Source: Gammaproteobacteria bacterium
GTDB taxonomy: Bacteria; Pseudomonadota; Gammaproteobacteria; Chromatiales; Chromatiaceae
NCBI GenBank assembly: GCA_018812525.1
Contig: JAHJDE010000122.1
Coordinates: 1 to 33,761, forward strand
DNA length: 33,761 nt
Direction of reading: 5' to 3'
The notes beneath the pieces are model-generated. The model did not search any database and was not told the origin of the DNA. It saw only the letters and a list, made by a program, of their open reading frames with translations. Position numbers and translations under genes: made by a program. Below, piece after piece: positions 11,101-29,179 of this stretch; position 1 is the stretch's first letter, and each line of letters starts with the position of its first letter.

Positions 11101-14100
11101 CGCCGGTGTCGCCGTCCAGGTTGATGTCCTCGAAGCCGATGACGATGGAGCCGTCATCCTGGGCCTCGTAGCCGCTGATGACGTGTTCCTTGCCGTCCGC
11201 GTTGAACTGCTGGTGGCTGAAGAGGACGTTGTCGAGGCAGGTCCCGCCGATGCGGATATTGGGGAAGCCGTCCGCGCCCATTTCGAAGGAGAGGTCGGCG
11301 CTGGTGATGCCATTGTAGACCCCGCCGTCATTGGCGTTGGGGAGCAGGAAGAAGCCGACCTGGCCGCTGAGTCCCTGGAATACGCCCAGGAATTGATCGG
11401 GGACGTTGCCGTCCACGGCATCGGTCATGTCCGCGAAGATCAGTTGGGGGGCGGTGGGATTGCCGTCCGGGCCGATCTGATAAAGGCCGACGATGTTCTG
11501 GTAGCCCGCGTGGCCGCCCATGTAGGTGATGCCGATGTTGGCGCCGCCGGCCCCGAAGTTAAGGTCGAGTTCGCCGGGGGCGTCATCGGGGTTGTAGGTG
11601 ATACCGCCATCCCCGTCGGTCAGCATGGCGTCGCCCAGGACATTGCCCGAGGGCAGCCCGCTGTCGATGCCGATCTGGGGCGAGTAGGCCGTGACCGCAT
11701 CGATGATGGGGGCGTCGTCGGTGCCCTGGATGTTGATGGTCAGCTCGGCGCTGTCGTCCAGGCCGGAGGCGTCGTGCATGCTGTAGGTGAAGCCCTCCTG
11801 CAAGGCGCCGCCGTTGTTGAGGGCGTCCACCGTGGCGTTGCCGTCGGCCACCTGGTAGCGGAACTCCCCGTTGGCCTGGATGAAGAGGCTGCCGTAGAGG
11901 CCGGCAATGAGGGTCTCGCCGGTCGCGGCAACGGCTGTGCCGCCCACGTCTGTGACGCTCATGGCCGAGCCGCTGTCGTTGCCCAGGACGTTGCCGATGG
12001 CCCGGCTGCCCTCGGCAGGCAGATCGGTGACATGGTCCTGGTAACCGGCCGGGCGCCATTCGTGGCCTTCTTCCACCGCTACGGCGGTGTCGTTGACGGC
12101 GTCGGGCCGGTCATCGTTGTCCCAAATGGTGCCGATGACCGCATTCTCGGTGCCGTGGGGCAGGATGGCCTCGAAGGCGCCGCTGTCGAGGATGGCGCCA
12201 ACGCTGGCCTGATACTGCTCGGTGCCCTCGAAGAGACTGTCATCGACCGTGGGCACCACCACCTGGGCACTGCTGTTGCCGGCGGCGATCACCACCGTGG
12301 AGAGGGCGGCATAGTCGGCGGACTCGGCAGGACTGGCACCGTAACCGGCATAGTTCAGGGTAACGGTGATCTGCTGGCCTGCGGGGACAGTGACCGGGTT
12401 ACCGTTGACATCGACCAGTTGCACCTGGTGGCAGATGTTCCAGCCCTCGGTATTGCTGTCGTCATGGACCAGCTTGACGAAGACGCTGTCCTCGGTGCCG
12501 GGGTCGCCCTCGTCCAGGAGGGTGCCAAGCCCCTGGTTGTCGCCGAAGGTGGCGTTGCTGGGATTGAAGAGGTTGACGAAGAAGTTCTCGCTGACCTCGT
12601 GGAGATAGTCGTCGGCGACGGGGACCGCAAGGGTCAGGGTCGTCTCGCCCGGATTGAAGGTGAGGACCCCGTTGGTGTCGGTGAAATCGACCCCCTCTGT
12701 GGCGGAGCCGCTGGCGGTGTCGTAACCGACGCTGACCGGCAGTTCGCTCGGGTGGCTCAGGGTGAGGGTGAAGACCGCCACGCCGTCGTCCTCGTTGACG
12801 GTGACATCGTTGATACTGATGCAGGGCGGGCCGTCGTTGTCGAGGATGGTGCCCGTGGCCGGCCGGTCGTAGGGACGGATGTCCTCGAAACCGCCGCCGA
12901 AGGCGTCCACCAGGCTGACCTGATAGACCTCGTCGTTCTCAAAGACGTTGTCGCCGGTCGTGTTGACATTGAAGGCCAATTCACTGCTGCCGGCCGGGAT
13001 GCTGAGGGTCAGCGGGCCGCTGTAGTCGCCGGCCTCGGCATCGTCGGTGCCGGGATCGGCATCCGCGCCGTAGTTCAGGGTCAGCCTGACCTCCGATTGG
13101 GCCTGGATGGTGGCGTAGCCGGTCGGGTCGCTGGGATCGAGGACGGGATCGCCGTTGCCGTCGGTCTTTACCAAAATCACCTTATGGGTCAGGGGATCTC
13201 CCTCGAAGGCCGCGTCGTTTTCGACCACCATGGCCAGGACGCGGTCGCCGCCGGGTATGTCGTTGTCGACGATAAGGCCGGTACCCATATCGGAGTGGTC
13301 GGAGACGGCGCCGGAGACGACGGCCTCGACCCGGAGGCTCATGTTCTCGGTGACTTCGTCGAGGAGGTCGTTATGGGTATCGACCTCCACCAGGATGGCG
13401 GAGTTGCTGGCCGGGATGCTGACCCGGTCGCCGTCCGCGCCGCCGCCGGGGGTCCAAGTGAAACCGCCGTCGGTGCTGTAGCGGAAGCTGACTTGCTCGA
13501 AGTCCACCCCCTGGGCGGCGGCATCGGGACCGCTGCCGGTGGCGGCGGCAAGGTCGAGCACCACCTCGGCGCCGGGCTGTACCGGGTCGCCGGTGACCGG
13601 ATCGACCAGGGAGAGGGTGAACAGCAGAGGCTGCCCCTCGGTGGCCTTGGCGTCGCCGATCAGGACGATGGGGGGATCGCCGGGCTGGTAGCCCTCGGTG
13701 ATGACGCCGGTGCCGGTGTCGGAGGTGTCGTTGACGGAGCCGGCCACCACGGCAGCGACCTGGAGGCTCATGTTCTCGACGCTGGGCCCCGTGTCGGCGT
13801 TGGCATAGGTCTCGACGCGGACCTGGATGCCGCTGGAACCGTTGGGGATACTGACCTGGGTCCCGCTGGGGCCGCCGGCGCTGGTCCAGTTGAGGCCGCC
13901 GTCGGTGCTGTATTCAAAGCCGCCGGCCTCGAAATCATCGCCGGCTAGGGCTGAACCGGAATGGGCGGCAAGATCGAGCACGATGTCGCCGGTAGCGGGA
14001 TGGCTCAGGCTGAGATCGAAGACCAGGGCATTGCCCTCGGGCACCACGTCATCGCCGATGAAGACATCGGGGGCGCGGGGGACATTCTCGTCCAGGATGG

Positions 14101-24636: not shown

Positions 24637-25740
24637 ATGCCGATCCCACACCGCCGCCCCTTCTTTCTTCCCCGGGAGGAACTGGAGTGTCTCTTCGACG
24701 CCCTGCGGGCGGGCGGCTATGCTTGTGTCGGCCCCCAGGCCAGGGATGGGGCCATCGTTTACGGACGGCTCGATTCCAGCGCCCAACTTCCCCACGGCTG
24801 GCGTGACCGGCAGGCACCGGGGGCGTATCGGCTGCTACAAACCGATAGCCCCCGCTGCTTCGCCTGGGCCTCGGGTCCCCAGGGGCTGAAACCCTTCAGC
24901 TTTGCCCCGGTGGAAGGGCTGTGGCGCTCATGGCGGCGCGCCGATGGGGGGCTTGGGTTCGAGGCTGTCGAAGCCGAGGCGCCCAGGCTGGCCATCATAG
25001 GCGTCAAGGCCTGCGACCTGGCTGCCCTGGCCATGCTGGACCGCCACTTTGCCGAGGATGCCCATTACCAGGCACGGCGGCGCGGGCTCTTGTTGCTGGG
25101 GGTGGATTGCCACCACCCGGCGGCCACCTGTTTCTGCCGCTCCACCGGGGACGGTCCCGCCCTGACCCAGGGCTACCAGATCGGCATGGCGGAACTGGAT
25201 GAAGGTCTTCTGTTATGGAGCAACGCTGAGCGGGGGGCCGAGACCCTGGCGCTTCTGGATCTGCCGGAGGCGACCGAGGGGCAAATGGAGCAGGCCAATC
25301 GGGCGATCGAGAATGCTGCCCAGGGGCAGACGCGGGAGCTGCCGGGACCGGACCTGAGCGGGGTCCTGTTCGAATCCCTCGATCACCCCGCCTGGGAGAA
25401 GGTGGCAGAGCGCTGCCTCTCCTGCGGCAACTGTACGGCGGTCTGTCCCACCTGTTTCTGCCACGACCAGATCAGCGAACCGGCCCTGGATGGGGGCGAG
25501 TCACTGCAAGTCCGGCGCTGGGACTCCTGTTTCAACGAGGGACAAAGCCTGCTGCGCGGCCGGGTGGTGCGCGGGAATATCCGGCTGCGCTACCGTCAAT
25601 GGCTGACCCACAAGCTGGCGGGCTGGCATGCCCGGTTCGGCCGTAGCGGCTGTGTCGGTTGTGGCCGCTGCATCACCTGGTGCCCCACCGGCATCGACTT
25701 TCACCCTGTACTGGATGCCATCCTGGAGGGGCGGCCATGA
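24637..25740 (+). CDS. hydB: Hydrogenase-like beta subunit, 4Fe-4S protein (HydB/AsrA family)
   Basis: The 367-residue protein matches the beta subunit of group 3b NiFe hydrogenases (Pyrococcus sulfhydrogenase HydB) and the related AsrA of anaerobic sulfite reductase. Visible features are [39 protein letters not shown], and two C-terminal 4Fe-4S sites, [14 protein letters not shown] and [14 protein letters not shown]. It should pass electrons between the flavin subunit and the small subunit. It is first in the operon; its TGA overlaps the next ATG (ATGA), implying coupled translation. Cysteine motifs are complete. Start ATG 24637 has no strong Shine-Dalgarno. Confidence 0.9.
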
Positions 25741-26567
25741 GCGGGACCTTGCCCAGGGAAGCCCTGGTGGTCGAGCGCCTGGAGGAGTCGCCTGACATCT
25801 TTACCCTGCGGCTTGAGTATCTCGATGAGGATCACCGCAAGGCATTCGCATTCGAGCCCGGCCAGTTCAATATGGTCTATCTGCACGGGGTGGGCGAGGT
25901 GCCCATGTCCATCGTCTCCGACCCGGCAGACGCCCACTGCTTCGATCACAGCATCCGCCCACTGGGGCGGGTGACCGAGGGGCTGGCGCGACTGAAGGCG
26001 GGGGATCGCCTGGGCATCCGGGGACCCTTCGGCCGCGGTTGGCCACTGAGGGAGGCCGAGGGCAGGGATCTGATCATAGTCACCGGCGGTCTTGGCTGCG
26101 CCCCGGTCTTGTCTCTGATCAATTACGTCATGCGGCGAAGGGACAGGTTCGGCCATGTCACCCTCTTGCAGGGGGTGCGCCAGGCCCATGACCTCATCTG
26201 GCGCGAGCGCTTCGATGCCTGGGCGGGGCAGCCCGATACCCGGGTGCTGCTGGCGGCGGACCTGGCAATGGGGGATGCCCGTTTCCACGAGGGGACGGTG
26301 GTTGAACTCTTTTCCCAGGTCAGCCTGGTGCCGGAGCGCAGTATCGCCATGATGTGCGGGCCAGAGCTGATGATGATGGCCGCCATCGCCCAATTGCGCG
26401 AGCTTGGCCTCGGCGACGGGGATCTCTGGCTGGGCCTGGAGCGCAACATGGCGTGCGGCAACGGCCTCTGCGGCCATTGCCAGATCGGCCCCCTCCGCGT
26501 CTGCAAGGAAGGTCCCGTGTTCCGCTACGCGGAGATCGCCGACTACTTCGGCGTCAGGGGGTTCTGA
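25737..26567 (+). CDS. hydG: Hydrogenase-like gamma subunit, FAD/NAD(P)H oxidoreductase
   Basis: The 276-residue protein of the ferredoxin-NADP reductase/PyrK fold resembles HydG of sulfhydrogenase and AsrB. It has an FAD-binding barrel (GQFNMVYLHGVGEVPMSIVS, GPFGRGWPL), a nucleotide-binding domain (VTGGLGCAPVLSLINYV, MMCGPELMM) and a C-terminal 2Fe-2S site with four cysteines (ACGNGLCGHCQIGPLRVC). It should exchange electrons between NAD(P)(H) and the iron-sulfur subunits. ATG 25737 overlaps the beta stop. The next operon gene (delta) is separated from it by an opposite-strand gene. Confidence 0.9.
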   Translation: MSGTLPREALVVERLEESPDIFTLRLEYLDEDHRKAFAFEPGQFNMVYLHGVGEVPMSIVSDPADAHCFDHSIRPLGRVTEGLARLKAGDRLGIRGPFGRGWPLREAEGRDLIIVTGGLGCAPVLSLINYVMRRRDRFGHVTLLQGVRQAHDLIWRERFDAWAGQPDTRVLLAADLAMGDARFHEGTVVELFSQVSLVPERSIAMMCGPELMMMAAIAQLRELGLGDGDLWLGLERNMACGNGLCGHCQIGPLRVCKEGPVFRYAEIADYFGVRGF

Positions 26568-27146: not shown

Positions 27147-27920
27147 ATGACGAAACCAAGAATCGCAGTTCACCAATTCAACTCTTGCGGGGGCTGCCAG
27201 TTGGCCCTGCTCGATCCGGGCAGCTTGCTGGCCGAGCTCTCCCAATGCTTCGAGATCGTTCACTTCGCCATGGCCGGGTTCCTGGACGAAGGGGCCGAGG
27301 TCGATGTGGCCCTGGTGGAGGGCAGCATCTCCTCAGCTCCGGAACGAGAAAGGATCGAGCAAGTCCGGGCGCGGAGCGGATACCTGGTCGCCTACGGCGC
27401 CTGCGCCGCCTCGGGTGGCTTGCAGGCCCTGCGCAATCAAGCCGACGGCAGCCAATGGATCGCCGAGCTCTTCGATCGACCCGAACGCATCGGCCTGCTG
27501 CCGGCCGCCACCCCCATCACAGACCATGTCAAGGTCGATTGGACCCTCTGGGGCTGCCCGGTCAACGGCCGGCGCGTACGCTCTCTGTTACGCGACATCC
27601 TCTCCGGCGTCAGGCCGAAAAGGGACTCCCGCCCCCTCTGCATGGAATGTAAGGAGAGGCAACTGATCTGTACCCTGGTGACCCAGGGACAACCCTGCAT
27701 GGGGCCGGTGACCCAGGCAGGTTGCGGTGCCCTCTGCCCCGCCTTTGGGCGGGCTTGTTATGCCTGCTTCGGCCCCTCGGAGCAGGTGAACCACTCCGCC
27801 CTGGCCGGACGCCTCCAGGGGTTGGGCCTGAGCAAGGCGGAAACGGCGCGCCGGTTCCGCTTCATCCATGGCAACGCCAGCCCTTTCCGGCTGGCGGCGC
27901 ATGGGCTGGAGGAGGAATGA
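27147..27920 (+). CDS. hydD: NiFe-hydrogenase-like small (delta) subunit
   Basis: The 257-residue protein resembles the group 3b small subunit. The proximal 4Fe-4S ligands are all present: C14 and C17 (NSCGGCQLALL), GACAASGG, and WGCPVNG. Nine further cysteines in CMECKERQLIC, QPCMGP and GCGALCPAFGRACYACFGP can hold additional clusters. VDVALVEGSIS is typical of the family. There is no twin-arginine signal, so the complex is cytoplasmic. ATG 27147 is preferred to the TTG at 27111, which overlaps a likely -10 box. Its stop overlaps the alpha ATG (ATGA). Confidence 0.9.
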   Translation: MTKPRIAVHQFNSCGGCQLALLDPGSLLAELSQCFEIVHFAMAGFLDEGAEVDVALVEGSISSAPERERIEQVRARSGYLVAYGACAASGGLQALRNQADGSQWIAELFDRPERIGLLPAATPITDHVKVDWTLWGCPVNGRRVRSLLRDILSGVRPKRDSRPLCMECKERQLICTLVTQGQPCMGPVTQAGCGALCPAFGRACYACFGPSEQVNHSALAGRLQGLGLSKAETARRFRFIHGNASPFRLAAHGLEEE

Positions 27921-29179
27921 ATGCCCTGATCCAGGTGCCTCTGTTGACAAGGGTGGAGGGGCGAGGCGCCCTGCGGCTGGAGATCGGGGAGGGATCCATT
28001 CATGCCCTGGCCTTGAAGATCCTGGAGCCGCCGCGCCTGTTCGAAAAACTGGTCGAGGGACGCGGCCGGGATCAGGTGGTGGAGATGGTGGCCCGCATCG
28101 GGGGACTCTCTCCGGTCGCCCATCAATTGTGCGCGGCCCAAGCCTTCGAACGTCTCGCCGAGGTGGAGCCGGCGCCCTGGGTCAGCGCCATGCGGCGGGT
28201 GATGCTGTGCGGGGAGTGGATACAGAGCCACAGCCGCCATATCCACCTCATGGCCTTGCCCGATTTCCTCGGCGCCAACGACATCCAGGCTTTGATGGAG
28301 CGCCATGGGGAAGTCCTGCAACGGGGTTGGCGCCTTCAGCAATTGGGCCGGGAGCTTGTAGCCCTGTTCGGCGGCCGTTCGGTCCATCCGGTCGGGGTAC
28401 GCATCGGCGGCTTCTATCGGGCACCCGAGCCGCTGGCAGTGGCGGTCATGCGCCAGCGTCTGCAGGACGCCTTGCCGGCGGCGGAGGCCCTGCTGGGCTG
28501 GATCGCCAAGACCCTGCCTTTTCCCCAGGACGAACACCCCTTCACCAGCGTCGCCCTCAGTCCTGCGGCGGGCTATCCCATGGGCGGGAGCCGGATCCAG
28601 TCCGGTGACTGGCTCGATATCGATGCCAGCGAGTTCATACGCCACTTCGAACGCCACGAAGTTGACCACTCCCTGGCGCCCCACAGCGTCCTCGACAAGC
28701 GGCCCTACCTGGTAGGTCCCCTGGCGCGCCTCAATCTGGGCTTGCCGGAGCTTTCCCCGGCGGTTCGGCAGGCCCTCGCTGCGACCGGTATTTCCTTCCC
28801 GAGTCACAACATGTTCCACTCCATCCTCGCCCGCGCGGCCGAACTGCTGTTCGCCCTCCGGGAGGCGCTCGGCCTGCTGGAGGGGTATGAAAGGCCGGCC
28901 AGGTCCTTCGAGGAGGTTCCGCACCAGAATGGCATCTCCTACGGCGCCATCGAGTCCCCGTGCGGGCTGCTCTGGCACTGCTACGAGATCGACGACCACA
29001 GACGGGTAAACGCGGCCTGGATCGTCTCCCCCACCAGCCAGAACCAGGCGCGCATGGAAGAAGACATCCGCCTCAGCCTGGAACGCCTCGGCCTGGACCA
29101 GGATGAAACAAGCCTGCGCCAGCGCGCCGAACGGGTGATACGCAACTACGACCCCTGCTTCTCCTGCGCGGTGCATTGA
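27917..29179 (+). CDS. hydA: NiFe-hydrogenase-like large (alpha) subunit with altered active site
   Basis: At 420 residues this has the normal length for group 3b alpha subunits. Conserved family features include LLTRVEGRG (9-17), FGGRSVHP, RPYLVGPLARLN and the C-terminal DPCFSCAVH (C414, C417). The N-terminal ligand motif, normally RICGxCPVxH, reads RIGGLSPVAH: G62 and S65 replace both nickel/iron cysteines. The canopy arginine of the EAPRG motif is C349 (ESPCG). Extra cysteines appear at 72 and 355. The chain ends on the His of the last motif, so there is no peptide for a maturation protease to remove. ATG 27917 follows GGAGGA. Ordinary H2 catalysis is unlikely; the true reaction is unknown. 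Confidence 0.88.
   Translation: MNALIQVPLLTRVEGRGALRLEIGEGSIHALALKILEPPRLFEKLVEGRGRDQVVEMVARIGGLSPVAHQLCAAQAFERLAEVEPAPWVSAMRRVMLCGEWIQSHSRHIHLMALPDFLGANDIQALMERHGEVLQRGWRLQQLGRELVALFGGRSVHPVGVRIGGFYRAPEPLAVAVMRQRLQDALPAAEALLGWIAKTLPFPQDEHPFTSVALSPAAGYPMGGSRIQSGDWLDIDASEFIRHFERHEVDHSLAPHSVLDKRPYLVGPLARLNLGLPELSPAVRQALAATGISFPSHNMFHSILARAAELLFALREALGLLEGYERPARSFEEVPHQNGISYGAIESPCGLLWHCYEIDDHRRVNAAWIVSPTSQNQARMEEDIRLSLERLGLDQDETSLRQRAERVIRNYDPCFSCAVH

Follow-up and report, generated by a model that had tools for sequence, protein, structure and literature searches.

Several relatives of the [NiFe] hydrogenases are known that no longer carry a complete set of metal ligands: MBS is without two of the NiFe ligands and complex I without all four (PMC7684303), and the Ehr proteins of CPR bacteria also do without NiFe ligands (PMC7304191). 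Of the hydrogenases themselves, group 3b enzymes have been credited with an ability to reduce polysulfide (PMC7304191). The C-terminal tail of the large subunit is missing from regulatory hydrogenases, and a tailless R. eutropha MBH can be produced (PMC7294309), so that absence of a tail is by itself no proof of lost function. We found no description in the open-licence papers searched of a soluble group 3b complex lacking NiFe.

The window analysed here, a stretch of 33,761 nt, encodes a HydBGDA complex whose large (alpha) subunit is of the group-3b [NiFe] hydrogenase type by descent (Table 1). Sequence searches grouped the hydA product with group 3b sulfhydrogenase alpha subunits, the best matches being to SHI alpha, and the structure predicted for it (mean pLDDT 89) aligned with that of Pyrococcus furiosus SHI alpha over 414 residues (Z 53.6, rmsd 1.8). 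The likeness to P. furiosus SHI (HydBGDA, group 3b) extends from the alpha fold to the four-subunit set, with HydB, HydG and HydD encoded alongside, and to the Fe-S ligands; the L2 CxxC (C414, C417) is also present, and gene order is shared with the gammaproteobacterial 3b relatives. The complex differs from SHI and from a catalytic group 3b hydrogenase, however, in having neither the L1 CxxC, nor the canopy arginine of EAPRG, nor a cleavable C-terminal extension with an adjacent protease, the last being defined as in the gammaproteobacterial branch of the group. AlphaFold models of this GGLS subunit and of one canonical subunit were similar; mean pLDDT of the C-terminal block was 52 over ten residues in the former versus 72 over five in the latter.

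Table 1. Features of the hydBGDA locus, with positions in the 33,761-nt window.
Feature	Position	Strand	Basis
FNR/Anr-like box TTGACGCATGTCAA (TTGAC-N4-GTCAA) upstream of hydB, kept in sister genome	24536..24549	+	
hydB-like Fe-S subunit (beta); 15/15 family-conserved cysteines kept	24637..25740	+	
hydG-like flavin/NAD(P)H subunit (gamma)	25737..26567	+	
133-aa protein, start resembling a signal peptide; lies between hydG and hydD here and in sister genome	26572..26973	-	
hydD-like small (delta) subunit; 12/12 family-conserved cysteines kept, D15G and T88A adjoin cluster ligands	27147..27920	+	
hydA-like alpha (large) subunit of 420 aa; L1 cysteines, canopy Arg and C-terminal extension all missing	27917..29179	+	translation, homology, alignment, fold
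L1 motif, codons GGG GGA CTC TCT, GGLS (G62-G63-L64-S65) in place of CGIC	28100..28111	+	
Cys72, common to sister genome and absent from canonical relatives	28130..28132	+	alignment
Cys349 (TGC) at the canopy arginine position; Gln in sister	28961..28963	+	alignment
Cys355, common to sister genome; Arg in most relatives	28979..28981	+	alignment
C414-F-S-C417, C-terminal cysteine pair kept	29156..29167	+	translation, alignment
Stop immediately after the mature C-terminal His (H420); maturation peptide absent	29177..29179	+	

An earlier note on this DNA, made from its letters, had reported an open frame with GGLS, C349, the C414/C417 pair, RVEG and ATGA coupling, and translation of 27917–29179 bore out these features together with their codons and residue numbers. 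RVEG holds E14, and hydD overlaps hydA by an ATGA at 27917–27920, as it does in the sister locus described below. The note had also ruled out a standard active site; we agree, the L1 cysteines and the canopy arginine being lost in both genomes, and on its encoded residues a standard NiFe site in the GGLS subunit is not possible.

Our comparison covered 55 relatives, 210 family genomes, 369 class genomes and a genome-contig collection. A single close homologue was found, in MAG RIFOXYD12_FULL_61_37, another species of the same genus, with a hydA 74–75% identical to that of the window; the next-best homologues stood at 58–59%, and neither the genome-contig scan nor the 210 family or 369 class genomes yielded a further member of the clade above 59% identity. 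The sister cluster has the same gene set (subunits 74–79% identical), and its alpha subunit reads GGHS at L1 and ESPQG in the canopy region and ends directly after CAVH. By comparison, RICGIC, DPCISC and a C-terminal extension were present in all other homologues read (~90 distinct), as was the canopy arginine, within EAPRG or, for a single row, EVPRG. Of 91 columns without variation across 53 canonical rows, 15 were changed in the GGLS protein and 21 in its sister, and leave-one-out analysis on the same columns gave 0–3 changes per canonical row. Changes shared by the pair were 2.5-fold enriched near the active-site motifs, which was not significant (p 0.075). In a quick tree the two sequences were monophyletic with full support and lay inside the canonical sequences (stem 0.98; tips 0.22 and 0.33), and it appears from these comparisons that NiFe chemistry was lost once, on the branch leading to the GGxS genus. 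Both genomes are of related groundwater bacteria from one uncultured genus, and these two are the only members known. The earlier note had named a clade sharing GxxS and C349 next to hydBGD as support for a new subgroup: a GGxS pair beside hydBGD does exist, tiny as it is (n=2), but C349 is not among its shared residues.

A survey of the 369 class genomes for the tailless large-subunit pattern returned mostly regulatory-type subunits, ending in DPCMVCTVH; some matches were too short for L1 to be judged or were due to chance, and among the fetched loci with a readable L1 the cysteines were missing only in the hydA of the window. A tailless large-subunit-like frame near position 1501 of locus L159 has L1 RICGGGC, with one extra residue between the cysteines, and in locus L057 (G115) a second partial hydA copy at 11977–12606 follows the first in a scaffolded assembly and is possibly an assembly duplication.

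Sequencing error masking a CGxC and an isolated decayed copy, the two ways out left by the earlier note, are excluded by the independent genome with GGxS and the same losses, and by a hydA dN/dS of about 0.2. Between the two genomes, at a dS of ~0.8, dN/dS was 0.21 for hydA, 0.21 for hydB, 0.14 for hydG and 0.26 for hydD, from which we conclude that hydA and its partner genes are under purifying selection. As dS saturates in distant canonical pairs, relative distances were used for comparison with these: the distance of hydA relative to its partners was 1.08, and canonical sequences had a median of 0.86 (5–95% range 0.64–1.09). This value close to the upper end of the canonical range, together with the long stem branch, would be expected if hydrogenase activity had been lost and both genomes held slowly decaying copies that are still open. 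We consider such relaxed selection unlikely given the low dN/dS at this divergence, the four intact frames, the retention of all family-conserved HydB and HydD cysteines, and the conservation of synteny and of the FNR-like site. The slightly fast hydA fits the loss of one constraint and not neutral drift.

Among the residues common to both alpha subunits are H69, C72, S347, C355, C414 and C417. The two extra cysteines of the earlier note, C72 and C355, are included, and with H69 and the C-terminal pair they could be taken as a site for a different metal such as Zn or a single Fe, held by C414 and C417 with C72, C355 or H69. A few cysteines kept at 74% identity count for little as evidence, however, and the old canopy position is not conserved between the two genomes; we regard a replacement metal as improbable. 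The Gln of the sister also excludes C349 as a conserved new ligand, and the comparison does not support a place for this residue in a repurposed site.

A maturation protease was fused to hydA or lay downstream of it in 78 of 80 fetched loci, and the two loci without one were those of the sister MAG and of a canonical Thiorhodospira, the latter of which keeps its tail. Three protease sequences used as queries gave no significant match in the window. In six canonical loci (L083, L086, L088, L093, L097 and L126) the hydA frame runs on into a maturation-protease-like domain, an apparent fusion. The missing maturation peptide had been noted before, and the sister subunit ends in the same way. Two of the four NiFe ligands, the canopy arginine, the tail and the neighbouring protease have all gone together, a coordinated loss. 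That the complex is still a hydrogenase with an unusual NiFe or other site would be in keeping with its overall fold and retained C-terminal cysteine pair, but with all of these elements lost we give this almost no credence. HypD is present in both GGxS genomes. Each of them also has two other large subunits with intact motifs, one (RICGVC, EAPRG) with a single HycI-family protease encoded a few kilobases away and the other with RLCGIC plus EAPRG, so that these cells can still make NiFe enzymes. It seems that in both genomes only the GGxS complex has left the NiFe maturation pathway.

Absence of the C-terminal extension is shared with the H2-sensing regulatory hydrogenases (HoxC/HupV; PMC7294309), and the alpha subunit might by analogy be a redox-responsive regulatory or assembly subunit without turnover of its own. 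HoxC and HupV, however, keep all four cysteines and the NiFe cofactor, the tailless regulatory-type subunits in our class survey carry CGIC wherever L1 is readable, and the GGxS subunit is tailless with its L1 cysteines missing. As the NAD(P)H-flavin arm of the complex is also intact, a regulatory role is very improbable.

The partner subunits were changed to different extents, with 4 of 88 invariant positions altered in HydB and 13 of 73 in HydD. The 2Fe-2S cysteines of HydG are kept (C207 is Ser in the sister), and HydB and HydG resemble AsrAB by homology. The 133-aa protein encoded on the opposite strand is 76% identical between the two genomes, and its gene was not found in canonical loci. 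FNR-like boxes occurred within 350 bp upstream of hydB at 10 of 69 family loci, where 0.35 were expected. Each genome has two dsrA genes that pass the family cut-off (G000 C37 and C201; G001 C11 and C17).

MBS (MbsL/MbsJ) is the best analogue for the GGxS complex, as a hydrogenase-derived large subunit that has lost two of its four NiFe cysteines and kept the Fe-S chain. There, polysulfide is reduced at the proximal cluster (PMC7684303), and the emptied NiFe pocket of the GGxS complex could in the same way be a new active site, its cavity entered by a small acceptor such as polysulfide that HydD's proximal [4Fe-4S] cluster would reduce directly. In favour of this reading, HydD residues that are otherwise invariant are altered in both genomes in the ligand loops of this cluster (K10Q, D15G, T88A). 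MBS catalysis, however, needs a three-Cys cluster that arises from a three-residue shortening; in HydD the C14/C17 spacing is unaltered and C86 and C137 are retained, giving four of four ligands, which excludes an MBS-type open cluster. MBS also retains a different combination of two cysteines (C85, C385), and it is a membrane-bound ion pump from the complex I lineage; the partners identified here are the soluble HydBGD, with no co-encoded membrane ion-pumping arm. Because the three-Cys cluster is not reproduced in HydD, we do not class the complex as MBS-like in mechanism, and an active pocket of this kind is unlikely, if somewhat less so than decay of the genes. Ehr and complex I NuoD are alike in having a large subunit without NiFe ligands, but they are membrane-bound and of the group 4/complex I lineage, and the GGxS subunits derive from soluble group 3b, inside canonical 3b.

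What the genes encode is an intact NAD(P)H-flavin-FeS chain that ends at a pocket unable to hold NiFe. The GGxS complex has almost certainly ceased to handle hydrogen and was probably repurposed for a different task in electron transfer. The reading that we favour, by a modest degree over even odds, is that a 3b HydBGDA lost its [NiFe] chemistry once and was kept as a non-hydrogenase, an NAD(P)H-flavin-FeS complex that exchanges electrons with a partner other than H2. On this model the alpha subunit would fold straight to its mature shape without Hyp-dependent metal insertion and dock with HydD, and at low oxygen electrons would pass between NAD(P)H, at the HydG flavin, the HydB and HydD clusters and the non-H2 partner. 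As a guess at this partner, we would put first a sulfur compound, for example polysulfide, or else an electron carrier; the AsrAB-like HydBG half would serve it, and HydDA would perhaps act as scaffold and cluster holder. A sulfur compound is a plausible acceptor because of the resemblance of HydBG to AsrAB, the polysulfide reduction described for 3b enzymes (PMC7304191) and the presence of dsrA in both genomes.

A more specific proposal, which we put forward tentatively and with less confidence than the loss and retention just described, is that a soluble 3b hydrogenase independently turned into a non-hydrogenase, with the emptied pocket or its surroundings now hosting a reduction linked to NAD(P)H, perhaps that of a sulfur compound. 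If true, hydrogenases would have followed a second route, in the cytosol, alongside their transition to MBS and complex I. The hydrogenase relatives lacking NiFe ligands in the literature cited here (MBS, Ehr and complex I) are of the membrane group-4 line, and the GGxS pair is a soluble group-3b case, with intact relatives close by for comparison, in which the loss of ligands, canopy arginine, tail and protease can be assigned to a single branch. Annotation by homology will mislabel both genomes as 3b H2 users, and comparison of the pair with its intact relatives would allow testing of how a hydrogenase changes function.
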